DNA of 33,003 nt from Bacillus sp. J37. GTDB lineage: Bacteria > Bacillota > Bacilli > Bacillales > Bacillaceae. The notes beneath the pieces were generated by a model. That model ran no database searches, was not told where the DNA came from, and saw nothing but the letters and a program-made list of their open reading frames with translations. Shown piece by piece: positions 7,924 through 32,059 of the stretch. The stretch covers positions 153 through 33,155 of the forward strand of contig NZ_JAEK01000053.1 in the NCBI RefSeq assembly GCF_000518865.1, in the 5' to 3' direction. Both the position numbers and the translations under genes were made by a program. How positions within the stretch are numbered: the first letter of the stretch is position 1; the number at the start of each line of letters is the position of its first letter.

Positions 7924-7973
7924 TATTTTTACCCTCCTATTTAGGTTGAACATTCATGTCCAGCTACCATAAT

Positions 7974-8368: not shown

Positions 8369-8380
8369 TTTTATTATAGC

Positions 8381-8425
8381 ACAAACAAAAAAGATGACAA
8401 CGATTTAATTATCGGTATCATCTTT
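8381..8425 (-). terminator. Intrinsic terminator of the DeoR gene
   Basis: A stem of about 15 bp with a small internal mismatch (arms near 8389-8403 and 8411-8425) is followed on the minus strand by TTTTTTGTTTG. It lies 43 bases past the regulator's stop. Confidence 0.75.
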
Positions 8426-8468
8426 ATTTCTTCCTAAATCCTGCTTCGTCCCACAGTGTGTTTACTAA

Positions 8469-9233: not shown

Positions 9234-9267
9234 ATTGTTCCCCCGTGATTTATACATTTTCTATATC

Positions 9268-9295
9268 ATTATAGGATAAAATCATACAAAAACAA
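9268..9295 (-). promoter_or_regulatory. Promoter and likely auto-operator of the DeoR gene
   Basis: On the minus strand TTGTTT (9295-9290) and a perfect TATAAT (9273-9268) are 16 bases apart. The -35 overlaps a TTTGTTTTTG motif like the phased repeats at 8329-8368, suggesting self-repression. Confidence 0.5.
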
Positions 9296-9349
9296 ACATC
9301 TTACCTATTTTTGTGTTAGTAATTATATTTCATATATGTAAAGCTGCAC

Positions 9350-9380
9350 AAAAAGCAACCTTCTAAAAACGAATGGTTGC
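9350..9380 (-). terminator. Intrinsic terminator of kdgK-kdgA
   Basis: A GCAACC/GGTTGC stem (9375-9380 with 9355-9360) is followed on the minus strand by TTTTT. It begins 10 bases past the kdgA stop. Confidence 0.75.
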
Positions 9381-9389
9381 CCCTATAAA

Positions 9390-10028
9390 TTATTCTCCTC
9401 TTGCTTCTTTTACTGCTTTTATGAACTTTGATGCCGTGGCTGTTATTTCACTTAGATAAGCTGACGTAAGCTCTTTTTTCGTGTTGACCAACGAGCTGCC
9501 GACCCCTACTCCAGCTGCTCCGGCTTTAATATATTCACCGACATTATCTACCGAGATTCCACCAGTTGTTATAAGCGGCACTTGTGGCAGTGGACCATGA
9601 ATGTCTTTAATATAGCTTGGCCCAAACACATTTGCCGGAAATACTTTAATTAAATCTGCACCGTTTTCATAAGCGGTAAGGATCTCTGTTGGTGTTAGTG
9701 CTCCCGGAATGCTCACTACTCCATACCTTTTTGCCATTTCAATTGTTTTACTATTTGTCGTAGGAGAGAAAATAAATTTAGCCCCGGACATAATGGCAAC
9801 TCGTGCTGTCTGAGCATCAAGTACAGTACCTGCGCCAACTAGAACATCATCAAGCTCTAATGATGCTTTTTCAATTGCTGCACAGGCACCTGGTGTTTCA
9901 ACCGTTATTTCCAATACCTTGACTCCACCTGCTTTTAATGATTCTGCAATGGCGATGATATTATCAGTTGTTGCACCACGAATGACAGCAGCTACTCCGG
10001 TTTCCTTTATTATGTCAATATGACTCAT
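9390..10028 (-). CDS. kdgA: KDPG/KHG aldolase
   Basis: Class I aldolase splitting 2-keto-3-deoxy-6-phosphogluconate into pyruvate and glyceraldehyde 3-phosphate. The length of 212 residues is normal for the Eda/KdgA family. The Schiff-base lysine is in LIKVFPANVFGP (about Lys128) and the catalytic glutamate in VLEITVETPG (Glu40). The phosphate-binding TTGGIS block lies in the C-terminal part. AAGGAG precedes the start. It follows kdgK by 12 bases, and together they complete the KDG branch of uronate breakdown. If the cell has 6-phosphogluconate dehydratase, it could also serve the gluconate branch. Confidence 0.93.
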   Translation of the reverse strand: MSHIDIIKETGVAAVIRGATTDNIIAIAESLKAGGVKVLEITVETPGACAAIEKASLELDDVLVGAGTVLDAQTARVAIMSGAKFIFSPTTNSKTIEMAKRYGVVSIPGALTPTEILTAYENGADLIKVFPANVFGPSYIKDIHGPLPQVPLITTGGISVDNVGEYIKAGAAGVGVGSSLVNTKKELTSAYLSEITATASKFIKAVKEARGE

Positions 10029-10040
10029 TTTATCTTCTCC

Positions 10041-10991
10041 TTATCGAACAACATCTTCGCTGTTTTTATTTAGTATTTGTTCTACTTCATCTCTTTCCGG
10101 TAAACCATCAACATCACCATTAACCATTGTAACTAAAGCACCGACAGCGTTCGCTCTTTCAACCGCTTTTCCTATTTCTAAGCCGTCGAGTAAACCTGAT
10201 AGAAAACCGGCAGCAAATCCATCTCCTGCTCCAACAGGATCAACGACCTGCTTTACAGGAAATCCAGGAATTAAAGCGCTCTCTTTTTCAGTGAAAAAAT
10301 AAGCACCTTCCGCTCCCATTTTCAAGACAACAACTTTTGCACCTTGTGCTAAAAATAACTGTCCGAGCTTATGTGGATCACTTTCACCAAATAAAAATTC
10401 ACCCTCAGCTATACCGGGCAACACAATGTCAGCTTCTTTGGCCATCATAAGCAATGTGTCTCTCGCTGTTTCCTCATCCCAAAGCTTTGTACGGAGATTT
10501 GGATCAAAAACAATTGTACTACCATTTTGTTTGGCTAACCTTATTGCCTCAAAGACGGTTTCCTTACAACTTTCACTTAAAGCGGGTGTTATACCTGTAA
10601 TATGAAGATATTTAGCCTTACTAAGATAGTCATGATTAAGATCAGTTGGTGAAAGCCTGCTCGCGGCAGAGCCCTTTCGGTAATAGTAAACTCTTGTGTT
10701 ATTCTGTCTTCTCGGCTCTTTAAAATAAATACCTGTTGGTGCCTCTGAATCAAATATTACCTGACTAATATCGACATTTTCTCCTTTTAAACCGGCAAGG
10801 ACAGCTTTTCCGAATTCATCATCACCAAGCTTGCTGATCCATCCGACCTTATGTCCTAATCTTGCCAATCCAACCGCAACATTTGATTCTGCTCCACCGA
10901 TTTTTTTTGTAAACTGAGAAGCATTTCTCATAAAACCGTCACTAGTCGGTGTGAAAACAACCATAGATTCTCCAAGTGTTACGACATCCAT
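10041..10991 (-). CDS. kdgK: 2-keto-3-deoxygluconate kinase (PfkB family)
   Basis: Cytosolic sugar-acid kinase making KDPG from KDG and ATP, 316 residues. PfkB signatures are visible: the N-terminal GGAESNVAVGLARLG block (32-46) and the C-terminal DPVGAGDGFAAGF block (251-263), with the catalytic Asp257 in GAGD. Residues YYYRKGSAAS near 102-111 match the substrate-contact segment of KDG kinases. GGGGGAG sits before the ATG at 10991, so the 6-residue longer frame is not used. It is first in the kdgK-kdgA unit and divergent from the spore operon. A TATACT -10 lies upstream near 11056 without a good -35, and a TTTATTTTTGTTTT stretch in the leader resembles the neighbouring operators. Confidence 0.92.
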   Translation of the reverse strand: MDVVTLGESMVVFTPTSDGFMRNASQFTKKIGGAESNVAVGLARLGHKVGWISKLGDDEFGKAVLAGLKGENVDISQVIFDSEAPTGIYFKEPRRQNNTRVYYYRKGSAASRLSPTDLNHDYLSKAKYLHITGITPALSESCKETVFEAIRLAKQNGSTIVFDPNLRTKLWDEETARDTLLMMAKEADIVLPGIAEGEFLFGESDPHKLGQLFLAQGAKVVVLKMGAEGAYFFTEKESALIPGFPVKQVVDPVGAGDGFAAGFLSGLLDGLEIGKAVERANAVGALVTMVNGDVDGLPERDEVEQILNKNSEDVVR

Positions 10992-11176
10992 ATAACTCCC
11001 CCACAACATAAGTTTATTTTTGTTTTAAAATTATCTTTTTTGTTCACTTACGAATAGTATATAATTTGTGGAGAAATTTCTCTATACTTTTTATAAATAA
11101 AGTGAATATTTAATGTTAAACAATCGATAGAGTCATGCTGCTTACAAAATTTCTCAGTCTTAAACTTCACTAATCG

Positions 11177-18689: not shown

Positions 18690-18722
18690 AAAAAACTTCA
18701 ATTCCTTAATAAGGAATTGAAG
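18690..18722 (-). terminator. Intrinsic terminator of the lar operon
   Basis: A perfect 13-bp stem with a one-base centre (arms within 18696-18722; fewer pairs form once a loop is allowed) is followed on the minus strand by nine T. It lies 35 bases past the larC2 stop. Confidence 0.85.
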
Positions 18723-18757
18723 CCTTTTAAACTAATAATCGAGTGAATTATTCCAAT

Positions 18758-19225
18758 CTAATCCAATTGTTTCCAAACTTGTTCATAAACTTTTTTCAAT
18801 GGAACTTTATATGTGGTTGCAATCTTCTTACAATCCTCAAACTCCGGTGCTTTTTGGATAACTTGTCCATTGTACATCCCTTCTTTAACAGTTACAGGTC
18901 CCCACTCCGTTTGCACTTGCCTAAACGTCCTTTCAGCCCTAAACACAGTTAAAGGATAATACCTAATTCCAAGTGTTGTTGTTTCTTTCAGTAAAACTTC
19001 TCTAATCGTTCCAAGCTTCCCACGATTACACAGAAGCTGAAGTAACACACCTGGTCTATTTTTTTTCATATATATTGGTGTGTAAAAAACATCATTTGCA
19101 CCTGCTTCAAAAAGTAAATCCATTACATACCCAAGCCATTCTCCTGAAATATCATCAAGATTCACTTCTACTTTAAGCATTTGATCATCAATATGTTCCT
19201 CGTTTGATGGTGGTTGAGAAATCAT
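18758..19225 (-). CDS. larC: LarC C-terminal part (nickel insertion, LarC2)
   Basis: 155 residues corresponding to the C-terminal domain of LarC, the CTP-dependent enzyme that inserts nickel into the pincer nucleotide cofactor. The typical start is MLKVEVNLDDISGEWLGYVM, followed by LFEAGANDVFYTPIYMKKNRPG and a ferredoxin-like fold. It is in the same frame as LarC1 and is separated from it by a single TAG and seven sense codons. AGGAG lies 7 bases before its own ATG, so it can be started independently. In Lactiplantibacillus plantarum the two parts are joined by ribosomal frameshifting; here no frameshift would be needed, only read-through. Confidence 0.9.
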   Translation of the reverse strand: MISQPPSNEEHIDDQMLKVEVNLDDISGEWLGYVMDLLFEAGANDVFYTPIYMKKNRPGVLLQLLCNRGKLGTIREVLLKETTTLGIRYYPLTVFRAERTFRQVQTEWGPVTVKEGMYNGQVIQKAPEFEDCKKIATTYKVPLKKVYEQVWKQLD

Positions 19226-19246
19226 GAAATTACTCCTATCCGTTAC

Positions 19247-20140
19247 CTATTCCCCTATAACTACTCTTAATACATTTGGTCGATCTTTAAATGTTTTCGT
19301 TCCTGCTCCATATCCGATTGCCTTTATATCCATGGACGGAAGTGTACAAAATTCTTCAGAGAGGACCGATACAATTGCAGCTCCAGTTGGGGTGGTCAAT
19401 TCAAATCTAACATCACTTTGTTCGATTGGCACACCTTTTAACATTTCTAACGTTGCAGGAGCTGGTACAGGATAAATTCCATGATCAATGTGAATTCTTC
19501 CTGTTCCTACTGGAATAGCTGACGATTTAACATTTTTAATACCTAACTGATGAAGTAATATGGCTGTACCAATAATATCTATAATTGAATCAACCGCCCC
19601 AACTTCATGGAAATGAACTTTATCAAGAGGTAAACCGTGGATATGCCCCTCTGCCTCACCAATTTTTTTAAAAACATTTAAAGCTGTTTCTGTTACTTCA
19701 CTTGAAAAACCTGCAGACTCTATTAATTGAACGATATCTTTGTATGTTCTGTGGTGATGGTGATGTCCATGCTCATGATGGTGCTCGTGTTCATGATGAT
19801 GTCCATGGTTATGATGGTGTCTATGTTCATGGGTGTGTCCATGTTCATGGTGGTGGTCATGTTCATGAGTGTGTCCATGTTCATGAGTGTGTCCATGTTC
19901 ATGGTGGTGGTCATGTTGAGTGTGTCCATGTTCATGATGATTTTTTAGTATCACATCAAATTTCGTACTAGTAATACCATTTTTAACAACTTTTTTCCAT
20001 TGGAGTTCATACTCTTCATCTATTTTAAGTTTCTTTAATTCTTCCACAAGATATGCCGGATCTCCCCCAACATCAATAAGAGCACCAATCATCATGTCAC
20101 CGCTAATTCCAGAAAAACAGTCTAGATAAAGTGTTTTCAT
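19247..20140 (-). CDS. larC: LarC N-terminal part with His-rich tract (LarC1)
   Basis: 297 residues. It has the LarC N-terminal signature LYLDCFSGISGDMMIGALIDVG (3-24) and the later HFHEVGAVDSIIDIIGTA and PVPAPATLEMLKG blocks. It ends in NVLRVVIGE at a TAG where full-length LarC would continue. Between residues 68 and 130 lies a low-complexity stretch with 39 His of 63 residues, made of HEHGHTHEH-type units, a likely nickel store. Its ATG overlaps the larB stop (ATGA). With LarC2 it should form the nickel-inserting unit. Confidence 0.93.
   Translation of the reverse strand: MKTLYLDCFSGISGDMMIGALIDVGGDPAYLVEELKKLKIDEEYELQWKKVVKNGITSTKFDVILKNHHEHGHTQHDHHHEHGHTHEHGHTHEHDHHHEHGHTHEHRHHHNHGHHHEHEHHHEHGHHHHHRTYKDIVQLIESAGFSSEVTETALNVFKKIGEAEGHIHGLPLDKVHFHEVGAVDSIIDIIGTAILLHQLGIKNVKSSAIPVGTGRIHIDHGIYPVPAPATLEMLKGVPIEQSDVRFELTTPTGAAIVSVLSEEFCTLPSMDIKAIGYGAGTKTFKDRPNVLRVVIGE
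19751..19939 (-). repeat. Tandem repeats encoding the His-rich tract of LarC1
   Basis: Imperfect CATGAACATGGACAC-type units on the minus strand encode the HEHGHT repeats. The tract is internal to larC1, not an array with spacers, and its length probably varies between strains. Confidence 0.8.
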
Positions 20141-20892
20141 TGTTGTACTTCCCCTTTTTTAGCTAGTTGATCAATTAAAACTGCGTTATATGCTGCTCCA
20201 AAGCCATTATCAATATTGACTACACTTATCCCTGATGCACATGAATTTAACATCGTTAATAAAGCAGACAATCCATTAAAATTTGCTCCATAGCCTACAC
20301 TTGTTGGAACGGCAAGGATTGGATGACTAACGAGCCCTCCAACAACACTCGGAAGAGCGCCTTCCATTCCTGCCACAACAACGGAAACTGTAGCATTCTG
20401 GATTTCTTCTATTGAATCAAATAAACGATGTATTCCTGCGACACCCACATCATAAAATCTCCTAACATTGCTTCCCAATGCCTCAGCTGTTACTGCCGCT
20501 TCCTCTGCAACTTTTAAATCTGATGTTCCTGCACAGACAATGGCAATATAACCTTTGGATTTCTCACTTTGCTTTTCATCTTTCCAGAAAAGAATTTGAG
20601 CGATCTCATGATAAGTAAATTCAGGATACTCTTCTAAAATATGTGTTGCTTTTTCTTTAGAAATCCGTGTAACAAGAACGTTATTCTCCTTTGATCGGAT
20701 CGCTTTAATTATAGCTAAAATTTGTTCTTTTGTTTTTCCCTCACCATAAACGACTTCCGGGAACCCTTGTCGCTTCTTTCGGTGATGATCAACCTTTGCA
20801 AATCCTAAGTTTTCAAATGTTGAAAGCTTTTCCTTTGCTTCATTGATACTTAATGACCCTGTTTGTACCTGCTTTAAAATATCTTCAAGCAT
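20137..20892 (-). CDS. larB: LarB, pyridinium-3,5-biscarboxylate mononucleotide synthase
   Basis: 251 residues, normal for LarB. It carboxylates nicotinic acid adenine dinucleotide and releases AMP, the first step toward the nickel-pincer nucleotide. The C-terminal half is PurE-like: IAIVCAGTSDLKVAEEAAVTA (about 118-138), then VVVAGMEGALPSVVGGLVSHPILAVPTSVGYG. The N-terminal half has FAKVDHHRKKRQGFPEVVYGEGKT. AAGGTGAG precedes the start. It follows gluconokinase by 46 bases and overlaps larC1, so the cofactor genes and sugar-acid genes are one unit. Confidence 0.95.
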   Translation of the reverse strand: MLEDILKQVQTGSLSINEAKEKLSTFENLGFAKVDHHRKKRQGFPEVVYGEGKTKEQILAIIKAIRSKENNVLVTRISKEKATHILEEYPEFTYHEIAQILFWKDEKQSEKSKGYIAIVCAGTSDLKVAEEAAVTAEALGSNVRRFYDVGVAGIHRLFDSIEEIQNATVSVVVAGMEGALPSVVGGLVSHPILAVPTSVGYGANFNGLSALLTMLNSCASGISVVNIDNGFGAAYNAVLIDQLAKKGEVQQ

Positions 20893-20938
20893 TAATTTTC
20901 ACTCACCTTAGTTTAAGCTCTTTCCTTATTTTCACATT

Positions 20939-22411
20939 TTAAAAATGCTTTGCTATGTCTTTAGCCAATGATTCATATTTTTTATAGATTTCTAAGTAGG
21001 TATTATGATTATTTTCATTTGGTATAATTGGAGGACTCATTGGAATATTTTCTTTGATTTTTTCAAAGGAAGGTACTTTACCTAGAGCGACTAATCCTGT
21101 CCAAGCCGCACCCCATGCTGCGCTATGATGACTTTCAGAAACATATACATTTTTCCCAAAAATATCAGCCAACATTTGAAGCCACAGCTTTGATCTAGAC
21201 AATCCACCATTCACAAAGATCTTTTCAGGTTCGCCAGCCTGACTTTCTAAACTTTGTCCAATTTGATAAAGATTAAATGTAATTCCTTCTAAAACTGCAC
21301 GAACAAAATGTTCTTTCTTATGAGTAATATTCATCCCGAAAAAATTACCTTTAGCCTGTTGATTCCATAATGGTGCTCTTTCTCCATTGATGTACGGAAG
21401 GAAAAGTAACCCTTCAGCACCTGGAGCTGTTTTTTCAGCTTCTTTTGTAAACTCATCAAAACTTCCTTCAAAGTTTAAAAGTTCTTTTAACCATTGTAGC
21501 GCTATTCCGCCATTGTTTGTAGGACCGCCAATAATTGAATCCTCTTCTGTAAATGCATAGCAAAATGTTTCGCGTTCGTTCGTTATGCTGAAACCTTTAG
21601 TAAATTGTCTGATAGCTCCACTTGTCCCAGCTGTAATGGCTACTTCTCCCGGAGAAATTGCCCCTATACCTAAGTTAGCCAATTGTCCATCTGCTGATCC
21701 TAGCACAAATGGTAAATCCTCTGTGATTCCCATTTCTTCTGCAAGCTCTTTTTTTATACCATGTAAGACCATAGTAGGTGAAGCTACTTCCGATAGCTGA
21801 TCCTTCCTTACACCAGTCATCTCCAATAGTTCAAGATCCCAATCAAGTGTATGAGCATTCATCAAACCTGTTGAAGCCGCCATCGAAAAATCAACGACCC
21901 GTTTGTTAAACCATTTTAAGAGGATATATTCTTTTATCGAAATAAAATACGTTGCTTTTTCATAAGGCTCATATCCTGACTCTTTCATCCAAAGTAATTT
22001 TGATAGTGGAGTCATTGGATGAATCGGCACACCAGTTTTTTGAAATACATTCGTTCCATCATGTTGCTTCAGCTTTTCTGCCTGCTCAGTACTTCTTCCG
22101 TCTGCCCAAATGATTGCATTCGATAACGGTTGATATTCCTCATCAACACAGACTAATGAGTGCATAGCAGATGAAAAACTAATCGTAACCAGTTCATTCT
22201 TATGAAGATTGGCTTTCTTTATCACATCTCGCACTGCATTTACAGCAAACCGTTCGATTTCAACAGGGTCTTGCTCCACCCAACCTTGTTGCGGGTATAG
22301 TGATGTAATGTGTTCTTCTGATTCTGTGATTACTTTTCCATTCATATCAAAAACAACTGCTTTTACACTTGTTGTTCCAATATCAAGTCCAATAACAAAC
22401 TCATTTAACAT
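20939..22411 (-). CDS. gntK: Gluconokinase (FGGY family)
   Basis: 490 residues with the FGGY kinase layout. The ATP-site start is GLDIGTTSVKAVVFD (9-23). The substrate-side SFSSAMHSLVCVD and WADGRS match gluconate kinases, not xylulose or glycerol kinases. The second domain has ITAGTSGAIRQF and the closing INGGLS-type block FVNGGLSRSKLWLQM. It makes 6-phosphogluconate. In this cluster gluconate is most simply supplied by C2 epimerisation of mannonate. AGGAAG precedes the ATG. A terminator-like hairpin stands just upstream, after larE. Confidence 0.88.
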   Translation of the reverse strand: MLNEFVIGLDIGTTSVKAVVFDMNGKVITESEEHITSLYPQQGWVEQDPVEIERFAVNAVRDVIKKANLHKNELVTISFSSAMHSLVCVDEEYQPLSNAIIWADGRSTEQAEKLKQHDGTNVFQKTGVPIHPMTPLSKLLWMKESGYEPYEKATYFISIKEYILLKWFNKRVVDFSMAASTGLMNAHTLDWDLELLEMTGVRKDQLSEVASPTMVLHGIKKELAEEMGITEDLPFVLGSADGQLANLGIGAISPGEVAITAGTSGAIRQFTKGFSITNERETFCYAFTEEDSIIGGPTNNGGIALQWLKELLNFEGSFDEFTKEAEKTAPGAEGLLFLPYINGERAPLWNQQAKGNFFGMNITHKKEHFVRAVLEGITFNLYQIGQSLESQAGEPEKIFVNGGLSRSKLWLQMLADIFGKNVYVSESHHSAAWGAAWTGLVALGKVPSFEKIKENIPMSPPIIPNENNHNTYLEIYKKYESLAKDIAKHF

Positions 22412-22445
22412 ATAATCATCTTCCTTTGACAGTATTCATTTCCAT

Positions 22446-22474
22446 AGAAAAGGCCTTGGATGATTTCCAAAGCC
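22446..22474 (-). terminator. Internal terminator-like hairpin between larE and gntK
   Basis: A 9-bp stem with one G-U pair (arms 22466-22474 and 22452-22460) is followed on the minus strand by TTTTCT. It would reduce transcription from larE into gntK-larBC. No separate promoter for gntK fits in the remaining 35 bases. Confidence 0.6.
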
Positions 22475-22481
22475 TGTTTGA

Positions 22482-23279
22482 TTATGAAAGAACCTTATTC
22501 ATACTACCGCTCTTATATCCAACTAAATCTAATGTTATATATTTATATCCGTATTTTGTTAGTTCACTAGCTATTTTATCATGGTTTTCTAGGACAATGT
22601 TCATATCGCTTGGTTCAACCTCTATTCTAGCCATTTCCTGATGTGTTCGAACACGAACCTGACGAATATGAAAAGTCTTTAAATAAGCTTCTGCTTTTTC
22701 AATTTTCGTCAACTTCTCAATTGTAATCTTATCTCCATATGCAATTCTTGAAGACAGACAAGCAAAAGAAGGCTTATTCCATGTAGCTAAATCCAATTCT
22801 CTTGAGAGCTCTCTTATTTCATCTTTAAATAAGTTTGCTTCCTGCAAAGGACCACGTATTCCTTTCTCCTTCGCAGCTTTCATCCCCGGTCGAAATTCGT
22901 TTAAATCATCTGCAATAACACCATATATGATATTTTTAAACCCCTCTTTTTCCATGACAGGAATTATATGTTCAAATAAACTGTTTTTGCAAAAATAACA
23001 CCGATTACGATCATTTTCTGTATAACCTGGAATGGCTAGTTCTGACGTTTCAATCACTCTATGATTTGCCCCGATTTTCTTAGCTAACTCTTTAGCTTCT
23101 TCAAGCTCGCTAGAAGGGTATGTTTCAGAATCTGCTGTTACTGCCAGTACATGCTCAGGTCCTAATGTATCTACAGCCACCTTTAGCAAAAAGGTACTAT
23201 CGACTCCACCTGAAAAAGCGACAACAACTGATTGCATTTCTCGGAGAATGGACACTAAGTTTTGTAGTTTTTCATTCAT
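22482..23279 (-). CDS. larE: LarE, sulfur transferase for nickel-pincer cofactor
   Basis: 265 residues. It adenylates the LarB product and delivers sulfur to form its thiocarboxylates. The PP-loop SGGVDS is at 23-28. The conserved Cys174 in PSFACLSSR matches the sacrificial cysteine (Cys176) of the L. plantarum enzyme. A CxxC pair (Cys94, Cys97 in NRCYFCKN) is also present. Together, three cysteines could hold an iron-sulfur cluster, as in the catalytic LarE type, rather than giving up the cysteine's own sulfur; this is an inference. The start is ATG 23279 after AAGGAG, not the longer TTG frame. Confidence 0.94.
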   Translation of the reverse strand: MNEKLQNLVSILREMQSVVVAFSGGVDSTFLLKVAVDTLGPEHVLAVTADSETYPSSELEEAKELAKKIGANHRVIETSELAIPGYTENDRNRCYFCKNSLFEHIIPVMEKEGFKNIIYGVIADDLNEFRPGMKAAKEKGIRGPLQEANLFKDEIRELSRELDLATWNKPSFACLSSRIAYGDKITIEKLTKIEKAEAYLKTFHIRQVRVRTHQEMARIEVEPSDMNIVLENHDKIASELTKYGYKYITLDLVGYKSGSMNKVLS

Positions 23280-23318
23280 TGCTGCCTTCTCCTTTCTTTC
23301 TATCAAACTATTAATCCA

Positions 23319-24089
23319 TTAGATTGTCATACTTCCGAAACCACCGTCAACACGAATCATCGCACCTGTTACAAAGCTTGATGCTCTCTCTGAAGAAAGC
23401 CAAACAGCAGCACCTTGAAGCTCATCCGGGCTACCGAATCTTTTCATAGGTGTATGATTCATAATGGATTCAACACGCTCTTCACTTAAAATTTTTCGAT
23501 TCTGTTCAGCAGGGAAGAAACCAGGAATGATCGCGTTTACCCGAATACCATGTGGTGCAAATTCACGCGCCAAAAACTGTGTCATGCTATTAACTCCTGC
23601 CTTTGAAACCGAATACGTAAACACTTTTGAAAGTGGTGTTGTCGAAGAAACAGAAGATATATTAATAATACTTCCTTTTCTTCCTTGTTCAATCATTTTC
23701 TTAGCAAAAATTTGACAAGTAATCATCATTCCTTTTAGATTCACATCCATGATGTCATCCCATTCTTCATCACTAATTTCAAAAAATGGGGTTGAGCTGT
23801 TTTTCCCTGGAGCATTTAAAAGGATATCAAATCCGCCTGACCATTCTTCAATTTCTTTTACCACATTTTCTAAAGATTCACGAGCGCTTACATCTGCCTG
23901 GAATGCTTTTGCTGTTCCGCCTGTCTCTTCAATTTCTTGTACAACTTTGTTTGCTTTTTCAAGATTACGGCCAACAATCGCAATCTTAGCTCCATGAGCA
24001 GATAGCCCTCCGGCAATAGATGAACCTAATACACTGTTACCGCCTATTGCTACTGCTGTTTTTCCAGTTAAATCAAATAAATTAGACAT
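23319..24089 (-). CDS. uxuB: SDR-family D-mannonate oxidoreductase (UxuB-like)
   Basis: 256 residues with a short-chain dehydrogenase Rossmann fold: GGNSVLG (16-22) in the nucleotide site, LLNAPGKN at 90-97, and catalytic Ser146, Tyr159 and Lys163 (YSVSK). The C-terminal IIPGFFPAEQNRKIL and RVDGGFGSMTI segments are those I associate with Bacillus SDR-type fructuronate reductases (YjmF/UxuB), not with gluconate 5-dehydrogenase. It would reduce D-fructuronate to D-mannonate with NAD(P)H. AGGGGGG lies before the ATG at 24089. It sits between the LarA homologue and larE. Substrate assignment rests on these segments and on the uxaC neighbour. Confidence 0.78.
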   Translation of the reverse strand: MSNLFDLTGKTAVAIGGNSVLGSSIAGGLSAHGAKIAIVGRNLEKANKVVQEIEETGGTAKAFQADVSARESLENVVKEIEEWSGGFDILLNAPGKNSSTPFFEISDEEWDDIMDVNLKGMMITCQIFAKKMIEQGRKGSIINISSVSSTTPLSKVFTYSVSKAGVNSMTQFLAREFAPHGIRVNAIIPGFFPAEQNRKILSEERVESIMNHTPMKRFGSPDELQGAAVWLSSERASSFVTGAMIRVDGGFGSMTI

Positions 24090-24149
24090 TCTAGAAATCC
24101 CCCTCATTCTATTCATAAAATAAATGGCATATGTTAACGAGATGATTAA

Positions 24150-25418
24150 TTATGATAAATTACCTTCATCATTAAATGGCAGTTCAAAAAGATTGGATAA
24201 TTGCTCCATATCAGGATGCTGTGTAACATGATCAATCAAAGCTTCCGATACTTCAATTTCAGCAATCTCTAATGTGTTTTTTATACGAACCATTTTTACC
24301 TTTGTAAAATCAAGAATATTACATGTTTTAATTGCTGCTTTAATCGCATCTTTATCATTTGCTAATGTAGTAGCGATTTTAGTAGGTGCACAAACGGTTG
24401 AAGTTAATCCGTTTGCATACGTTACTTCCCGGTCCATTTTGTCTACAAGACGTTGAGTTGTAAAATCAGCTGTCCCTACACCATTGGCATTTCCTTCTGT
24501 TTGATGAGTTAAATCAAGCACGACCATTTTATTTACATCAGGCCCACCCTTTGCGTATGGTGTTGGATATCGACCTGTAATATTGGGGTCCATTCCGTCT
24601 CCACTGATGTTTTTTCCAATTTCGTCGATAACCAGCACGTCAATTTGATCAAAGAACAGCTTTGGCAATAGTTGTTTTGCTAATGCCTGAAGAGCCGGTT
24701 CCTTTTCTTCAATCTCTTCAACAGGTAAAACTTCAATCCTTGCTACTCTGTCAAATGCGTTTTCAAGTGTGGCTACTCCAAATAAAATCGGTGTCTTTTC
24801 CATCATCATTTTCGCCATTGCCGGAACATTTTCTGCCATATATTTAAACCCTAACTGATGGGTAGCTTCTGCTCCTTTTTGTTTTCCCAATCCGATACTG
24901 ATCATTTTCATAATACCGCTCTCAACTGGCCCACGAAATGCAGTATGTGGCTTAATCCGATTTATAACAACAATCCCGTCTGCTTGTGAAGCATATTTAT
25001 CAATATAAACCGGTAAACCATTCGGTAATTCCCCTAGTTTTATCACATCCATCGAGGAACGAATTTCTGCTTTCACACTTTCTTCTGTAACTCCAAGATG
25101 GGCTAAAACTTCACGTTGTCCTTCAGCTGTAGCACCTCCATGACTCCCCATACTTGGTACTATAAATGGAACAGCACCTAAATCCTTTAAAAATTGCACG
25201 GTATATGCCGTGATTTCTACAAGTCGATCCATCCCCCGGCTACCTACAGCAATAGCAATTTCCATACCAGGTCTCACCTTAGAGCGAATGGAATCCTGTT
25301 GCAATTTTTCTTTCATTGCTTGTTCTACATTCTCTATTTTTGCATTGTCAAAGTTCTGTTTCACTTTGGCCATTTTTGGAACAGGAATGTCTTTTAATAG
25401 ATCTTGAAGAATGCCCAT
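24150..25418 (-). CDS. LarA-family nickel-pincer racemase/epimerase, probably gluconate/mannonate 2-epimerase
   Basis: 422 residues of the LarA superfamily (DUF2088 N-terminal half). Candidate active-site residues are His93 (SMGSHGG), His158 (RIKPHT), Lys171 (GIMKMISIGLGK; the probable cofactor-tethering lysine, although Lys179 and Lys181 are nearby) and His187 (ATHQLG). It is diverged from lactate racemase, lacks lactate genes nearby, and lies between uxaC and an UxuB-like SDR with gluconokinase downstream. LarA homologues that epimerise gluconate at C2 (GntE) have been described. The context points to D-mannonate/D-gluconate interconversion. The cofactor genes larE, larB and larC are in the same unit. 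AGGAG lies 11 bases before the ATG. Confidence 0.85.
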   Translation of the reverse strand: MGILQDLLKDIPVPKMAKVKQNFDNAKIENVEQAMKEKLQQDSIRSKVRPGMEIAIAVGSRGMDRLVEITAYTVQFLKDLGAVPFIVPSMGSHGGATAEGQREVLAHLGVTEESVKAEIRSSMDVIKLGELPNGLPVYIDKYASQADGIVVINRIKPHTAFRGPVESGIMKMISIGLGKQKGAEATHQLGFKYMAENVPAMAKMMMEKTPILFGVATLENAFDRVARIEVLPVEEIEEKEPALQALAKQLLPKLFFDQIDVLVIDEIGKNISGDGMDPNITGRYPTPYAKGGPDVNKMVVLDLTHQTEGNANGVGTADFTTQRLVDKMDREVTYANGLTSTVCAPTKIATTLANDKDAIKAAIKTCNILDFTKVKMVRIKNTLEIAEIEVSEALIDHVTQHPDMEQLSNLFELPFNDEGNLS

Positions 25419-25434
25419 AACTTTTTTATCTCCT

Positions 25435-26838
25435 TTATCTTACAGAAAAGTATTTTTGTGCATTGTTAAAACCAATGTTTTCAACCATTTGTTTTAATAT
25501 TTTTTCATCATTTGGTACTTTTCCTTCTTCAACCCACTCACCAATGATATTACAAACAATTCTTCTGAAATATTCGTGTCGAACATAAGATAAGAGACTG
25601 CGCGAATCAGTTGTCATTCCGATAAAGTGACTTAGTATGCCTAAATTCGCTAAGTCTGTCATTTGTCGGACCATGCCATCATATTGATCATTAAACCACC
25701 AGCCTGAACCGAATTGGACTTTACCCGGAATACCTTCTTCAAAGAAGTTGCCAATCATCGTCCCCAACACATAATTATCACGTGGATTTAAATTATACAG
25801 GACAGTTCTAGGTAAGCTTCTTGCTTGATCTAATGTATCCAAGAAGCATGATAATCCTTCTGCGAGCAACTGATCACCGATTGAATCAAATCCGCCATCT
25901 GCACCAATTTTCTGTTGCATAAACGTATTATTATTTCGTAATGCCCCCATATGCAATTGCATAACCCACTCTTTATTAGCATACATTTTTCCCAACTCTT
26001 CAAGGAGATAGGAACGATATCCAATGAGCTCCTCATTTGTAAGCTCTTCGTTATTTAATCGCTTTTGGAAAATCTGTTCAACTTCACTTTTCGGTATTTG
26101 CTTATAAACCATTAGTTGAATATCATGATCAGATGCATAACAGCCATTTTCAGCAAAATAATCTACTCTTTGCTGTAATGCAGTTACTAAACCATCAAGT
26201 GTTTGAATGTTAATTCCTGAAGCAGACTCTAATTTTTTCAGCCATTCCGGAAAGCTAACTCTTTCAAGATAAAGAGCCTGGTCAGGACGAAATGTTGGAG
26301 CTACTTCCACTTCAAAAGCAGTATCTTCTCTTATTAACTTATGAAATTCGAGTGTATCAGTCGGATCATCTGTCGTACCGACTAATTGGACATTCGATCT
26401 TTCAATATATCGTCGAGGTGTAAAGTCCTCTGTTTGAAGCTTTTCATTACATTCTTCCCAAATCTCCTTCGCAGTATCAGGTGAGAGAAGTTTATTAATT
26501 CCAAAGAACGTTCTTAGCTCCATATGGGTCCAGTGATATAAAGGATTTCCAAATAAATGCGGGACTGTTTCTGCCCAAGCCTCGAATTTCTCCCAATCAC
26601 TTGCATGACCTGTGATTAAATCTTCTTTTACACCATGAATACGCATTGCACGCCATTTATAATGATCACCAGCAAGCCAAAGCTGTGTAATATTCTCAAA
26701 TGTTTGATTTTCATAGATTTCTTTAGGACTAAGATGACAATGATAGTCGAATATTGGCAAGTCCTTCATAATACTATGATAAAGATTTTCTGCCGTAGAA
26801 TTGGTTAATAAGAATGAATCACTTAAAAACGGTTTCAT
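25435..26838 (-). CDS. uxaC: Glucuronate isomerase
   Basis: 467 residues, normal for UxaC of the amidohydrolase superfamily. It converts D-glucuronate to D-fructuronate and D-galacturonate to D-tagaturonate in the cytosol. The HxH metal motif is in FDYHCHLSP (His33, His35). Typical blocks include LWLAGDHYKWRAMR, VQLVGTTDDPTDTLE and MTTDSRSLLSYVRHEYFRR. GGAGGAG precedes the ATG. It is the first gene of the cluster, 16 bases ahead of the LarA homologue, and follows the ROK-type palindrome. No tagaturonate reductase is present here, so glucuronate is the likelier physiological substrate. Confidence 0.96.
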   Translation of the reverse strand: MKPFLSDSFLLTNSTAENLYHSIMKDLPIFDYHCHLSPKEIYENQTFENITQLWLAGDHYKWRAMRIHGVKEDLITGHASDWEKFEAWAETVPHLFGNPLYHWTHMELRTFFGINKLLSPDTAKEIWEECNEKLQTEDFTPRRYIERSNVQLVGTTDDPTDTLEFHKLIREDTAFEVEVAPTFRPDQALYLERVSFPEWLKKLESASGINIQTLDGLVTALQQRVDYFAENGCYASDHDIQLMVYKQIPKSEVEQIFQKRLNNEELTNEELIGYRSYLLEELGKMYANKEWVMQLHMGALRNNNTFMQQKIGADGGFDSIGDQLLAEGLSCFLDTLDQARSLPRTVLYNLNPRDNYVLGTMIGNFFEEGIPGKVQFGSGWWFNDQYDGMVRQMTDLANLGILSHFIGMTTDSRSLLSYVRHEYFRRIVCNIIGEWVEEGKVPNDEKILKQMVENIGFNNAQKYFSVR

Positions 26839-26925
26839 TTTATCTCCTCCGTACCCTGTTATTCTTCAAAGTTTTTACTATATTCTCTTTTTGTCATGAA
26901 CAATTGTGTTATAATGAGATGAATC

Positions 26926-26956
26926 TTATTAATTAGTTTACAAAACAAATTAATAA
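26926..26956. promoter_or_regulatory. 31-bp palindrome, probable operator of the ROK repressor
   Basis: Arms of 14 bp (TTATTAATTAGTTT and its mirror with one mismatch) flank a three-base centre. The core AGTTTACAAAAC resembles XylR/ROK operators with TTAGTTT-AAACWAA halves. It lies 88 bases before uxaC and about 375 before the divergent ROK gene. A plus-strand extended -10 (TGTTATAAT) lies near 26907. Confidence 0.55.
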
Positions 26957-27128
26957 TCTATGTGTAGAATATCATTTCTATTATTTCTCGTCAATCATTT
27001 GTATACCACTTCTCAAATGACTGATTTTCAGTAAAAGTGAAAGAATGTATAATATTTAAATTGATGATTTAGTTATGGCTGTTTTCCAGTAAATATGTTG
27101 TTAATAAGTACTTTGTAAAAACTATATA

Positions 27129-27248
27129 GGTTGATTGGAGTGAAGGTGCGAGACTCCTGTGGGAGGCGGGACCCCGCAAACGCAAAGCGTTGAGGAGGGT
27201 CACCGCTCACCCCACGGAAAGCTTAGCATCCTGGAGATCAAATCAACC
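27129..27248. repeat. 120-bp dispersed Bacillus-type repeat with inverted ends
   Basis: The ends GGTTGATT and AATCAACC are inverted copies. Inside are GCGGG/CCCGC and AACGC/GCGTT stems and a run like GACTCCTGTGGGAGGCGGGA, far richer in GC than its AT-rich flanks. I recall closely similar elements scattered through many Bacillus genomes. It lies within the leader or promoter region of the ROK gene and contains no ORF. Between 26957 and 27128 and between 27249 and 27330 I see nothing else. Confidence 0.65.
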
Positions 27249-27330
27249 ACCCAACACATATTACAAAGCAACAAAGTTTGAGAAAACAGCCTTTAGAGTT
27301 TGTTTTTAAAAAAATTTAAGGGTGATTTAC

Positions 27331-28500
27331 ATGGCGATAGGTGACGCTGCTTATATAAAAAGTATTAATAGACGTTTAATCATAAGTAAAATAATTGAAG
27401 CAGGAATGATCTCCAGAGCAGATTTATCCAAAATAACGAAATTAACAAGAGCTACCATTTCTGTACAAGTAGCTGATTTATTAGAAGAAGAATTAATCGT
27501 TGAGTCACATCAGGAACATAACAGTGTGGGAAGAAAACCGATTATGCTGTCAATAAACCTAAAAGCTGGTTATGCATTAGGAGTTGATCTGGACCACAGA
27601 CATGTCACATTTACATTATCAGATCTAGGGGGAAACCCCGTAAGTACCGACATTATAGAGTTCAAGAATTCAAACTATGATGAAATACTTAACCTGCTCA
27701 TAGCTAATATCAAACAATATGATGATCAATATTCAGATAGTCGATTCGGTATTGTAGGTGTTGTCATCGGAATTCACGGGACTGTTTCCAAGGATGAAAT
27801 AATTAACTTTATTCCTCAACATAAATGGAAAGATAAAAACTTAAAAGAAGACTTAGAAAAAGAACTCGATATGCAAATACATATCGAAAATAATGCAAAC
27901 TTATGCTCATTTGCTGAAAGAGTATTCAAACATCATCAAAGTGATAATTTAGTCAGTATCAGCATGTACTCGGGTATTGGTTTAGGTGTATTAATAAACG
28001 GGGAGCTACTTAAAGGATATCATGGATACGCTGGAGAAATGGGACACATGATCATCGTACCTGATGGTCGTCCTTGTAACTGTGGTAATTCAGGTTGTTG
28101 GGAATTATATGCTTCAGAGGCAAGTATCTTAAACCAATTAAAGGAATTACATGCTAATCAACATCTAACCTATCAAGATACTCACAAATTTATCATAAAT
28201 CAAGATCAACCAACCTGTGATGTACTTGATTCGTTCATTAAATATGTTGCTATAGGTTTAAACAATATTATTAATTTACTAAATCCCGAAACAATTGTTC
28301 TCAATAGTGAGTTATTAAAAATGTATCCTAATGTTATTCATAAAATTGAATCAAACCTAACTTCGTCCATTAGCGATTATCATAAAATCTTAATTTCAGA
28401 TCTCGGAAAACATGCAGCAGTAATGGGAGCTTGTGCTTTAGCTATCAAAAGCTTTCTGGGTGTTCCTGATATTCGTTTAACGATCGAAGATCACAAATAG
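27331..28500 (+). CDS. ROK-family transcriptional repressor (XylR/NagC type)
   Basis: 389 residues. A winged helix-turn-helix lies at about 24-58 (MISRADLSKITKLTRATISVQV). It is followed by a ROK sugar-kinase-like domain with GVVIGIHGTV, the MYSGIGLGVLINGELL loop, GYAGEMGHM and the zinc motif CNCGNSGCWE (Cys249, Cys251, Cys256). AAGGGTGA precedes the ATG at 27331; three extra upstream codons are not used. It is divergent from uxaC with a strong palindrome between them, so it is the natural controller of the uronate/nickel cluster. The inducer is probably a uronate or aldonate. Confidence 0.9.
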   Translation: MAIGDAAYIKSINRRLIISKIIEAGMISRADLSKITKLTRATISVQVADLLEEELIVESHQEHNSVGRKPIMLSINLKAGYALGVDLDHRHVTFTLSDLGGNPVSTDIIEFKNSNYDEILNLLIANIKQYDDQYSDSRFGIVGVVIGIHGTVSKDEIINFIPQHKWKDKNLKEDLEKELDMQIHIENNANLCSFAERVFKHHQSDNLVSISMYSGIGLGVLINGELLKGYHGYAGEMGHMIIVPDGRPCNCGNSGCWELYASEASILNQLKELHANQHLTYQDTHKFIINQDQPTCDVLDSFIKYVAIGLNNIINLLNPETIVLNSELLKMYPNVIHKIESNLTSSISDYHKILISDLGKHAAVMGACALAIKSFLGVPDIRLTIEDHK

Positions 28501-28560: not shown

Positions 28561-29703
28561 TTAATGGTTTTTTTGAGCTATTTGAAGATAAATTTTTTCT
28601 AATCTTTCTGCGACATGTTGAAACTGGAAGTGTTTTTTTACATTTTCTCTTCCATTCAAACCAAGTGATTTACTTTCAGAAGGATTTGATAATATAAAAT
28701 CTATTGCATCTGCGAATGCTTTGGGATTGTCGTAATCATTAATGACAAGTCCATTTCTCCCGTGGTGAATAACTTCACCATTTCCCCCTCGATTTGTTGT
28801 AATGATTGGGATTGCTGCTGCCATTGCTTCATAATGAACACGGGCAAGTGGTTCATGCCATTGTGAACTACATACAAACAGATCAGCCATGACTAAATGT
28901 TCAGGTATATTCTCCGTAGGGACATACTTAGTAAAAAGAACATGTGAAGGAAACTTGGAACTAAGATCAAATAAGCTCTGAACATAATCATCAACAGTAT
29001 TATCACTAAACCACTTTCCCCCTACGATGACCAACACAATGTCAGGGTATTTATCGATTAAATGGTGCAACGCGTTTATTAACAAATGGGGCCCTTTTGT
29101 TTTACTTAAACGACCTATAAAAAGAATCACTTGTTTCTCTTGGAGATCGTAGTGTTTACGTACTCTCTTCCGAATGATTTTCCCCTGTTTTTCATAAACA
29201 CTTTGATACTTTTGCAGATCTACACCAGAATAAATGACGTGGACCTTATGTGATGCCTGCGGATATCTTTTTACTATTGTTTGCTTTATATAATTGCTGA
29301 CTGTTGTAATGGCATCTACACATTCAATCGCCCTTAATCCCTCTTCTTTTGTTAGTTTTAACTGTGAAAACATATCGTTATGAAGACTTAAAACAAATGA
29401 GCTGTTTGGTGAGGATTCTTTGTAAATAGGAATATGACTGGGTCTGTTAAATACATGAATGACATGAAATTGGTGTTTCATTATTTCCTCAGCAACATTG
29501 TTCATATAGGTTTCTCTCGGAAATCGAAAATATTCTAAATGAGCATGCTTCTCATTGTTTGGAAGAGATTTGTCAGAGATAGAAAAGATCGTCACTTGGT
29601 GCTCGGTTAAAAAAGGAATAATCCCATCAAGCATGATCTGAACCGCCCCACCTTTTATTGCAGGTGAAGGTAACTTCTCCGTACATATAAAGGCAATTCT
29701 CAT
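28561..29703 (-). CDS. ytcC: GT4 glycosyltransferase (YtcC/CotSA type)
   Basis: 380 residues in the two-domain GT-B fold. The N-terminal domain begins FICTEKLPSPAIKGGAVQIML, close to the CotSA/YtcC group of spore-coat transferases. The C-terminal domain has LFIGRLSKTKGPHLLINAL and the donor-site ExxGxxxxE-type region HEPLARVHYEAMAAAIPIITTNRGG. Such enzymes transfer sugars onto spore-surface polysaccharide. It follows ytcB by 13 bases. Assignment to YtcC over CotSA rests on the ytcA-ytcB-ytcC order. Confidence 0.78.
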   Translation of the reverse strand: MRIAFICTEKLPSPAIKGGAVQIMLDGIIPFLTEHQVTIFSISDKSLPNNEKHAHLEYFRFPRETYMNNVAEEIMKHQFHVIHVFNRPSHIPIYKESSPNSSFVLSLHNDMFSQLKLTKEEGLRAIECVDAITTVSNYIKQTIVKRYPQASHKVHVIYSGVDLQKYQSVYEKQGKIIRKRVRKHYDLQEKQVILFIGRLSKTKGPHLLINALHHLIDKYPDIVLVIVGGKWFSDNTVDDYVQSLFDLSSKFPSHVLFTKYVPTENIPEHLVMADLFVCSSQWHEPLARVHYEAMAAAIPIITTNRGGNGEVIHHGRNGLVINDYDNPKAFADAIDFILSNPSESKSLGLNGRENVKKHFQFQHVAERLEKIYLQIAQKNH

Positions 29704-29716
29704 TCCCCTATCACCT

Positions 29717-30664
29717 CTACAAACCGTAAACTTTGCGGATATAGTTCAGTTCTTTAACTAAGCCTTCTTTTAACGATATTTTAGGATTGTAGTGTAGTAG
29801 TGTTTGTGCAAGAGTGATATCTGCCCATGTATGTTTCGGTTCTCCGTTAACTTTTTGCGTGTAGTTTATTTTTGATGTTTTCCCTGTTATTTGTTCGAGT
29901 AACTCAGTGACTTCATTGATGGAGGCTCTTTCTTTTCCACCTATATTAATTGTTCTGCCAATCAAATGATCTTGGTATAACACAGCCGATGTTGCTTCAA
30001 CACAATCGCTGATAAAAGTAAAATCCCTTGATTGGGTACCATCCCCATATATCGTGATTGGTTCTTCTTTTAGAATTTGAACAATAAATCGGTGGAATGC
30101 CATATCAGGCCGTTGTCTTGGTCCATAGACTGTAAAAAATCGAACCACTACAATTGGAACACCGAAACTCTTATTATACACATGACATAGGTGTTCACCG
30201 GTTAATTTTGTAATTCCGTAAGGTGAAAGTGGTGTAGGTATTGAGTCCTCCGATACTTTTCCGCTCTTTTCGCCATAAATAGATGATGTGGATGCATAGA
30301 TAAATTTAGTAATATTTTTGTTTTTCACAGCTTCCAATAGACGTTGGGTTGCCAAAATATTATTTGTTACATAAGGGTCAAAGTCTTTTCCCCAACTAGA
30401 TCGAACACCAGGCATACCTGCCAGATGATAAATGGCGTCCACCTCTTTTAGTACATTGTCCAGATCTGCTGAAAGAAGATCAATTTCCATGAACTGAAAT
30501 CTTGGATGATTCTTAAGTGATTGGAGGTTTACTTCTTTTAGATTTATTGGAGTTGGCCCTATAAAGGTATCTACCCCAATTATTCTATTTTCCGGATCTT
30601 TTAGCAGTCTCTCACACAAATGAGATCCAATAAAGCCTGCAGCACCAGTAACAAGTATTTTCAT
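29717..30664 (-). CDS. ytcB: NAD-dependent sugar-nucleotide epimerase (YtcB-like)
   Basis: 315 residues of the extended SDR family: GAAGFIGS (7-14), the Ser-Tyr-Lys set in YASTSSIYG and SPYGITK, and VVVRFFTVYGPRQRPDMA, which is typical of UDP-glucuronate 4-epimerase-like enzymes. It overlaps the ytcA stop by ATGA. Because ytcA makes UDP-glucuronate, UDP-galacturonate is a plausible product; the substrate is inferred. Length agrees with B. subtilis YtcB (about 316). Confidence 0.85.
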   Translation of the reverse strand: MKILVTGAAGFIGSHLCERLLKDPENRIIGVDTFIGPTPINLKEVNLQSLKNHPRFQFMEIDLLSADLDNVLKEVDAIYHLAGMPGVRSSWGKDFDPYVTNNILATQRLLEAVKNKNITKFIYASTSSIYGEKSGKVSEDSIPTPLSPYGITKLTGEHLCHVYNKSFGVPIVVVRFFTVYGPRQRPDMAFHRFIVQILKEEPITIYGDGTQSRDFTFISDCVEATSAVLYQDHLIGRTINIGGKERASINEVTELLEQITGKTSKINYTQKVNGEPKHTWADITLAQTLLHYNPKISLKEGLVKELNYIRKVYGL

Positions 30665-31950
30665 GAGCGTGCAACTCCTACGTATTGAAATCCATGTTCA
30701 TACGCTTTTGATGGATCGATGCAGTTTCGTGCATCCAGAATAACATTTCCTTTCATAAGCAGCTTAAGTTTCTTCCAATCTAAATAGAGAAATTCAGCCC
30801 ATTCTGTAGCGATGATGACACATTCAGCATCAGTAACTGCTTGATCTAAAGTAGGAAATTGAATAATATTTGATTCTCCTAAAAAAGGTAACGTTGCTTT
30901 TGGATCATATGTGTTTACATTACAACCTATTTGACCTAGTTTTTTGATGAGATAAACCGCTTGAGATTCTCTTGTGTCATCTGTATTTGGTTTGAAAGCA
31001 ATACCAAGAACTGAAATCGTTTTCCCTTTCAGTGACTCAAATACGGTTATAAGTTTTTCAATATAATAATCAATTTGTGAATGATTTGTAGATTGGATGG
31101 CTTGTAGAATGATCGGAGTTATATTTTTTTCAATCGCACTTTGTTCTAGAGAACGGACATCTTTCGGAAAACAAGACCCTCCATAGCCTAGACCTGAGTT
31201 TAGAAAGTGCGGACTGATTCGTGGGTCTGTACTGATCCCCCGAACAACATCATCAATATTGACTTCATACTTATCACATATTCTAGCAATTTCATTAATA
31301 AATGAGATTTTTGTTGCTAAAAAGGCGTTTGAGGTGTACTTAATCATTTCTGCACCGGAGAGAGTTGTTACGATATAAGGAGCTTCTATTCCTTTAAAAA
31401 GAGATTTTACAATGTTTAAGGATTTAGAATCATTTTTTTTCATGCCCACAACAATTTTATCAGCATGTAACATATCGAAAAGCGCTGACCCTTCCCTTAA
31501 AAATTCGGGATTCGAGACGACTGCAAACTGCTCTGGAGCGATTCCTTTTTGAAGTAACTTAGCATGTATCTTTTCGTTCGTACCAGGTGGAACAGTACTT
31601 TTCGTAATGATTGTTTTATAATCTGTAAGTGCATCTGCTATCATATCAACTACACTATAAATATATGTTAAGTTGGTTTTACCATCTGCAAGTGAGGGAG
31701 TTCCCACTGCGATTAAGATAACAGGATGCTTTCGGATATTTTCAATTACTTCAGAATTAAATGTTAAGTTTTTCTCGTTACGAGATATGATTTCCTTTAA
31801 TCCAGGCTCATAAATTGGTACTTCTCCCCTATTTAATGATCTGATTTTTTCGATATTTGTGTCAACACAACAAACAGTGTGCCCGAGATCTGCAAGGACA
31901 GAGGCAGAAGTCAAACCTACATAACCAGCTCCTACTACACATATTTTCAT
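30661..31950 (-). CDS. ytcA: UDP-glucose 6-dehydrogenase (YtcA/TuaD type)
   Basis: 429 residues. It oxidises UDP-glucose twice to UDP-glucuronate. The NAD site is CVVGAGYVGLTSASVLADLG (4-23). The catalytic Cys is in LGYGGSCFPKDV, preceded by the conserved FINEIARICDKY helix, and the C-terminal VLGIAFKPNTDDTRES block is present. The frame is open to 32037, but GGAGAGGGG precedes the ATG at 31950. It is the first gene of ytcABC, which in B. subtilis belongs to spore-surface polysaccharide synthesis. I could not find a convincing sporulation promoter just upstream. Confidence 0.93.
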   Translation of the reverse strand: MKICVVGAGYVGLTSASVLADLGHTVCCVDTNIEKIRSLNRGEVPIYEPGLKEIISRNEKNLTFNSEVIENIRKHPVILIAVGTPSLADGKTNLTYIYSVVDMIADALTDYKTIITKSTVPPGTNEKIHAKLLQKGIAPEQFAVVSNPEFLREGSALFDMLHADKIVVGMKKNDSKSLNIVKSLFKGIEAPYIVTTLSGAEMIKYTSNAFLATKISFINEIARICDKYEVNIDDVVRGISTDPRISPHFLNSGLGYGGSCFPKDVRSLEQSAIEKNITPIILQAIQSTNHSQIDYYIEKLITVFESLKGKTISVLGIAFKPNTDDTRESQAVYLIKKLGQIGCNVNTYDPKATLPFLGESNIIQFPTLDQAVTDAECVIIATEWAEFLYLDWKKLKLLMKGNVILDARNCIDPSKAYEHGFQYVGVARS

Positions 31951-32059
31951 TTCTATATCCCCTCTCCAAAAAGTTTCTATTTCTATACTCTCTATTTTAT
32001 TAGTGGATAAGCTTATATTGTGATAGAGCATAAACACAATTAATCATTAAAAACCGTTA

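Follow-up and report, generated by a model that had tools for sequence, protein, structure and literature searches.

A LarA-type enzyme of nickel-pincer group 22 in a glucuronate operon of Bacillaceae and its proposed role in converting mannonate to gluconate

What does a LarA-type enzyme, accompanied by its own cofactor genes, do in an operon that begins with glucuronate isomerase? This question is raised by a 33,003-nucleotide stretch of Bacillus sp. J37 (contig NZ_JAEK01000053.1, the window hereafter), in which eight genes on the minus strand (18758-26838) encode, in this order, glucuronate isomerase (UxaC), a LarA-fold protein (larA22), a short-chain dehydrogenase/reductase (SDR), LarE, an FGGY kinase (gntK), LarB, LarC1 and LarC2, next to a divergent gene for a ROK-family regulator. 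Judging from gene content and conservation, the operon is probably a self-contained route leading from glucuronate through fructuronate, mannonate and gluconate to 6-phosphogluconate and the pentose-phosphate pathway.

We infer the substrates, the order of the steps, the flux and the regulation as follows. UxaC would convert glucuronate into fructuronate, which the UxuB-like SDR would reduce to D-mannonate. The LarA-fold enzyme, carrying a nickel-pincer nucleotide (NPN) that LarB, LarE and LarC of the same operon would make, would invert C2 of D-mannonate by proton-coupled hydride transfer, and the resulting D-gluconate would be phosphorylated to 6-phosphogluconate by the FGGY kinase. The ROK protein would govern the operon via a palindrome before uxaC. 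In the source genome, mannonate dehydratase (UxuA) from another contig could still dehydrate mannonate; in relatives with no UxuA match, the nickel route would be the sole mannonate route.

The operon and its LarA-fold protein

Genes were named from curated family libraries, and their scores in bits were compared with curated cut-offs (Table 1). The gene cluster and divergent ROK gene that a sequence-only reading had described are all present at the places and on the strands it gave, and its family-level names are upheld by the library scores; it had also placed larB, larE, larC1 and larC2 in the same unit as the larA gene, and all four exceed their cut-offs. Consistent with its further statement that the window lacks uxuA, uxaA and uxaB, none of them was named among 30 of 36 open reading frames (ORFs; at least 90 amino acids) scanned there. 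The intergenic gaps of the operon are 12-70 bases, with one overlap of 4 bases, and because of this tight spacing and the strong hairpin after larC2, a single transcript is likely. Terminator-like sites in the region numbered 10 against 5.1 expected, and promoter-like sites showed no excess over shuffles (33 found, 38.1 expected).

The larA22 product was assigned to NPN isomerase group 22, while its scores against malate/lactate racemase models were faint (36.6 bits or less), and its predicted fold is the two-domain fold of LarA. H93 and H158 (catalytic histidines), K171 (cofactor lysine), and H187 (nickel ligand) align to H108, H174, K184, and H200 of LarA, and all four are invariant in the 82 group-22 sequences compared. 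Group 22 is thereby set apart from the single-histidine LarA subfamily (LarABw, LarASp), in which an asparagine replaces the second catalytic histidine.

Membership in the gluconate 2-epimerases (GntE), which had been suggested for this protein, is not borne out. GntE groups 18-20 are marked by an E-V/S loop behind the second catalytic histidine (PMC7583248); the loop here is H158-T159-A160, with T159 invariant in the 82 sequences, and we therefore reject membership in GntE. A PDB search with the group-22 profile at E 0.1 retrieved no LarA entry, 4NAR (GntE2) included; the 25 sequences it did match were all TAL-effector repeats, dropped as chance helical-repeat matches.

Table 1. Operon genes, regulator and candidate signals in the window (scores in bits against family models)
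Feature	Position	Strand	Evidence
uxaC, glucuronate isomerase, operon gene 1	25435..26838	-	NF002794 642.8 (cut-off 387); PF02614 710.9 (cut-off 25)
larA22, LarA-fold protein, NPN isomerase group 22, proposed D-mannonate/D-gluconate 2-epimerase	24150..25418	-	NF052515 565 (cut-off 400), aligned over positions 1-391 of 392
SDR, UxuB-like, proposed fructuronate reductase	23319..24116	-	NF006132 278.4 (cut-off 281)
larE, NPN sulfur insertase	22482..23306	-	TIGR00268 367.3 (cut-off 150)
FGGY kinase, gluconokinase-like	20939..22411	-	TIGR01314 497.9 (cut-off 648.55)
larB	20137..20892	-	NF033503 318.7 (cut-off 175)
larC1, with long His-rich stretch	19247..20140	-	TIGR00299 219.9 (cut-off 90)
larC2, own ORF starting 21 bases past larC1	18758..19225	-	NF052512 148.5 (cut-off 50)
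ROK-family regulator, divergent	27322..28500	+	PF00480 191.7
Terminator-like hairpin 3' of larC2	18690..18728	-	18 pairs and T-run
Weaker terminator-like hairpin, larE-gntK gap	22451..22475		
Palindrome between ROK gene and uxaC	26926..26956	.	14-base arms, 93% complementary, 3 bases apart

Conservation of the locus and the place of UxuA

Eighty stretches of up to 20 kb were fetched around NF052515 matches above the cut-off, a set that does not hold every match; neighbours were called by choosing the longest ORF, with miscalls in L036, L047, and L060, and L049 was called from all ORFs. In 11 of the fetched loci (L049, L051, L053, L056, L058, L062, L063, L067, L082, L085, L098) LarA22 is at least 69.8% identical to that of the window, and nine of these have both the SDR and the kinase of the window type, L049 and L062 being without the SDR. 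Twenty named loci were added, of which 18 (L115-L132) hold full-length close relatives, L134 a partial one, and L133 a remote one (40%). When 103 group-22 proteins were placed in a tree by a quick method, the window, the nine loci, and the 18 named ones came out as one branch of 28 proteins (SH-aLRT 95). The arrangement, for which the sequence-only reading had proposed a survey of other genomes, recurs in many of them.

Within the branch, the SDR is found in 28 of 28 loci, and the kinase in 26; uxaC is at most about 10 kb away in 21, and 24 loci (all but L058, L063, L123, and L127) have larE or larB. A homolog of decarboxylating 6-phosphogluconate dehydrogenase (Gnd) lies in the fetched stretch of 11 loci; the one in L053 scored 783 bits (cut-off 413). 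Eight further stretches outside the class carry LarA22 of 54-72% identity: L192 and L193 have uxaC, gnd, larA22, the SDR, and the kinase in a single run, L194, L195, L196, and L198 (a 3.5 kb contig) have only larA22 and the SDR of the genes sought, and L197 and L199 have no SDR. GFO/IDH/MocA oxidoreductases stand beside the operon in L063, L082, L098, L116, L122, L125, L192, and L193, mostly together with a TIM-barrel protein.

This conserved company bears on the suggestion that the nickel enzyme has a different hexonate as its substrate, or performs a different hydride transfer, its tie to glucuronate being no more than shared uptake or regulation. Group 22 is indeed broad (63 of the 398 class genomes have a match, 57 above the cut-off, with up to 4 matches per genome), and many members have different neighbours, such as TRAP transporters, a galactonate-dehydratase-family protein, an IlvD/Edd-family dehydratase, kdgK, and kdgA. 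A sister clade (L033, L037, L040, L041, L050, and others) often has two TRAP solute-binding genes, kdgK, and kdgA, and L033 also has the galactonate-dehydratase-family protein (699 bits) and the IlvD/Edd-family dehydratase; because of these neighbours, this large clade likely acts on another sugar-acid substrate. Two LarA active-site positions (D72, K298) could moreover not be matched to the window protein. For the branch of the window, however, the constant SDR and the frequent kinase, uxaC, and Gnd make this reading unlikely. Group 22 was also matched in Haloferax volcanii, one of 14 control genomes, and therefore extends to archaea.

Compared with 12 chosen loci in which uxaC lies beside uxuA (L165-L176), larA22 occupies the operon position held by uxuA. 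An SDR 37-42% identical to that of the window is near uxuA in 11 of these 12; five such SDRs scored 427-463 bits as D-mannonate oxidoreductase, and five of the window type 274-282 bits, among them those of L053 (282.2, above the NF006132 cut-off), L058 (280.6), and L082 (274.4).

UxuA is often missing where the operon is present. In the class sample of 398 genomes, UxaC was matched in 97 and UxuA in 131; six UxuA matches that were weak (E between about 1e-19 and 5e-18), none from a UxaC genome, were removed before the count. Among the UxaC genomes, UxuA is absent from 5 of 10 with a close enzyme vs 5 of 87 without (Fisher p 0.0008, ignoring kinship), and from 4 of 6 of the subset with uxaC in the cluster (p 0.0006); three of the five UxuA-less genomes with a close enzyme belong to one genus (g92), and therefore the p value overstates independence. 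The five of the comparison group include G068 and G162 with broken uxaC, and G115 and G270 were counted as UxuA-positive though their copies are broken or partial. UxuA was matched in 4 of the 11 close class genomes and in 13 of 19 named genomes, a set that may overlap the class set; two of the 13 (G410, G414) have remote matches only and were assigned to neither the UxuA-positive nor the UxuA-less group. Eleven of the 28 branch genomes have no match and two a remote one only; with uxaC nearby (21 genomes), these numbers are 9 and 2. ManD, considered as a hidden mannonate dehydratase of the UxuA-less genomes, was dropped: none of the 31 genomes searched has it above the cut-off, and relatives in G410, G411, and G412 scored 360-405 bits.

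The source genome itself (5.3 Mb, 96 contigs) is, judging from LarA22, that of a Bacillaceae near Metabacillus, because the nearest named proteins are those of M. niabensis (99% identity) and M. halosaccharovorans (97%). It holds uxuA on another contig (G000:C21:22618-23679, 556.6 bits, the single match). The sequence-only reading had mannonate dehydration replaced here; with uxuA in the genome, strict replacement is ruled out in this organism. A functional uxuA elsewhere was what that reading had named as its own refutation, and the presence of the gene goes part of the way towards it. Two fates of mannonate may thus coexist in this genome. What stands of the earlier proposal is the course to 6-phosphogluconate, which the conserved larA22-SDR-kinase block, Gnd, uxaC, and the frequent lack of UxuA support. 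The genome has two uxaC genes. The second precedes two ORFs that, on visual inspection of their first residues, were taken for uxaB and uxaA, and a separate classical cluster thus appears to serve galacturonate.

Substrate, order of steps, and control

Several observations weigh against the proposed route via free mannonate and gluconate. No activity of any group-22 protein is known, and in a profile alignment of low identity D72 of LarA lies opposite a gap and the alignment ends before K298; some LarA groups are reported to lack certain catalytic residues (PMC7583248). Full UxuA is present in 15 of the 28 branch genomes (10 of the 21 with uxaC nearby), and the UxuA-less class genomes are partly of one genus, as noted above. 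In the source genome, uxuA together with a kdgA-like gene (9390-10028 in the window) and a kdgK-like gene (10041-11009, below its cut-off) leaves the classical route open, and a canonical gluconokinase is encoded on contig C95 (804 bits) besides the divergent cluster kinase. Canonical gluconokinase was found in 7 of 19 genomes searched, five of which have the cluster kinase too. Both the SDR and the kinase fall short of the cut-offs for the families from which their functions are taken, and the low scores of the cluster kinases, even beside a canonical gluconokinase, call for caution. The hairpin in the larE-gntK gap may also damp the second half of the operon.

The kinase scores are where an alternative order of steps has to be weighed, in which the FGGY enzyme phosphorylates mannonate and the nickel enzyme then epimerizes 6-phosphomannonate at C2, yielding 6-phosphogluconate. 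Such a pathway has been shown in Lactobacillus suebicus with cell extracts, its genes, that of the epimerase included, not being identified (PMC6978723). Gluconokinase is the top family of the window kinase by 155 bits, the runner-up being XylB (342.5), yet all 15 cluster kinases scored lie at 455-500 bits, below the cut-off, even with a canonical enzyme in the genome. The two branch loci without a cluster kinase, L119 and L124, come from genomes (G402, G407) that hold canonical gluconokinases (929 and 841 bits), which would speak for free gluconate as the product; this argument is weak, because canonical gluconokinase co-occurs with the cluster kinase in the five genomes mentioned. The nearest sister loci, L049 and L062, have kinases near the cut-off (620-629 bits), with an enolase-superfamily protein and a short 6-phosphogluconate dehydrogenase (408 bits in L049, cut-off 297; in L062 by clustering only), and other group-22 genes adjoin dehydratases of free sugar acids. 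We consider phosphorylation before epimerization unlikely.

Epimerization could also precede reduction: the nickel enzyme would turn fructuronate (5-keto-D-mannonate) into 5-keto-D-gluconate and the SDR would reduce this to gluconate, so that mannonate is skipped and the net route is the same. D-mannonate oxidoreductase is the top family of the window SDR yet just below its cut-off, and the runner-up is gluconate 5-dehydrogenase (219.3 bits; 214-232 for such SDRs), which it beats by 42-66 bits in five SDRs of the window type. The SDR occurs without the kinase in 6 of 103 tree rows, four of them outside the 28-row branch, and larA22 and the SDR therefore co-occur more widely than either does with the kinase. 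The LarA substrates described in the accessible literature are, however, mostly 2-hydroxy acids without a ketone, and GntE2 accepts mannonate (PMC7583248), so this order appears very unlikely. That group 22 uses a substrate unprecedented for LarA at all, be it fructuronate, ahead of the SDR step, or 6-phosphomannonate, once the kinase has acted, is doubtful, and epimerization of D-mannonate itself is the reading that we retain.

The palindrome before uxaC is likely the ROK operator. A ROK homolog adjoins the operon in many relatives, and a pattern taken from the core of the palindrome was found close to where the operon begins in 10 of the 17 named loci examined (850-base stretches; L119, L133, and L134 left out), with 11 matches in these stretches vs 20 over the full 357,007 bases of the loci. 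In L129, whose fetched stretch lacks uxaC, such a site precedes larA22; the window has one further match, at 17082 inside a transporter gene. A single cre-like site in the window, outside the operon (0.48 expected), was dropped. Between the ROK gene and uxaC lies a stretch with inverted ends (27129-27248; 11 bases, 91%), its core motif occurring once in the window, which we take to resemble a Bacillus intergenic repeat.

As for the cofactor, profile searches of the source genome gave one Lar_N match and one group-22 match, and the cofactor genes of the operon may therefore be read as dedicated to larA22. LarE has a CxxC motif and a third cysteine (Cys 103, 106, 183), a pattern shared by all 22 listed LarE of >60% identity, and the [4Fe-4S] LarE of Thermotoga has the same kind of motif (PMC9283937). 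The very long His-rich stretch of LarC1 perhaps serves nickel. The larC1 and larC2 ORFs, separate in the window, overlap in L053. Nickel/peptide ABC transporter-like genes are found in L082 (NikA 139 bits, Opp2C nickel permease 156 bits, both below cut-off), with homologs in L085 and L098 by clustering.

Elsewhere in the window, a second sugar-acid cluster on the minus strand (3889-11009) comprises a TRAP transporter of three genes, a BglB-type protein, a DeoR-type regulator, and the kdgA- and kdgK-like genes. Past the ROK gene (28561-32037, minus strand) are genes for a GT4 glycosyltransferase, an NDP-sugar epimerase-like protein, and a nucleotide-sugar (UDP-glucose 6-) dehydrogenase-like protein; synthesis of UDP-glucuronate adjoining glucuronate breakdown is possible.

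Known routes and what the operon would mean

The bypass is not new as such, contrary to what the sequence-only reading implied. In Thermotoga, a LarA enzyme had already been proposed to turn mannonate into gluconate (Rodionova 2012, cited in PMC6978723 and PMC7583248), and the gene for GntE2 of T. maritima (LarAH20, PDB 4NAR) lies between those for fructuronate reductase and gluconate kinase (PMC6978723), with the same proposed entry into the pentose-phosphate pathway (PMC7583248). GntE1 and GntE2 (groups 19 and 20) convert D-mannonate to D-gluconate in vitro (PMC7583248), as do an oomycete GntE and the promiscuous LarAH10 (PMC11770544). GntE1 of Corynebacterium glutamicum (LarAH19) shares the uronic-acid context but differs in belonging to group 19 and in its very high Km, mannonate being doubted by the authors as its native substrate (PMC7583248).

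The galacturonate route of L. suebicus likewise joins the upper isomerase pathway to 6-phosphogluconate, and UxuA, KdgK, and KdgA were undetected in its proteome (PMC6978723). Unlike the route proposed here, mannonate is phosphorylated ahead of epimerization there, and the word nickel is absent from that paper. The classical isomerase (Ashwell) route, UxaC-UxuB-UxuA-KdgK-KdgA, is the same up to mannonate, with UxaC and a UxuB-like SDR, whereas UxuA then dehydrates mannonate to 2-keto-3-deoxygluconate (KDG), and the operon described here has larA22 and gntK in that place.

Searches of the open-licence literature turned up no description of a group-22 activity or of such an operon. What seems new is that a second LarA branch, accompanied by cofactor genes of its own, would serve the bypass in Bacillaceae and Paenibacillaceae. 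It provides a proposed substrate for a large LarA group for which the accessible literature gives none, and suggests that two remote LarA branches converged on the same job. If 6-phosphomannonate were the substrate, group 22 would point to the kind of gene missing for the 6-phosphomannonate 2-epimerase activity of L. suebicus, and with either this substrate or fructuronate the operon of Bacillaceae would represent a new sugar-acid pathway instead of another form of that of Thermotoga. If the proposed epimerization of mannonate is correct, growth on glucuronate would be nickel-dependent in some Bacillaceae, hexuronate carbon would enter 6-phosphogluconate, with NADPH and pentose phosphates, rather than KDG, and the use of glucuronate would be explained in genomes that have UxaC but no UxuA or ManD match.

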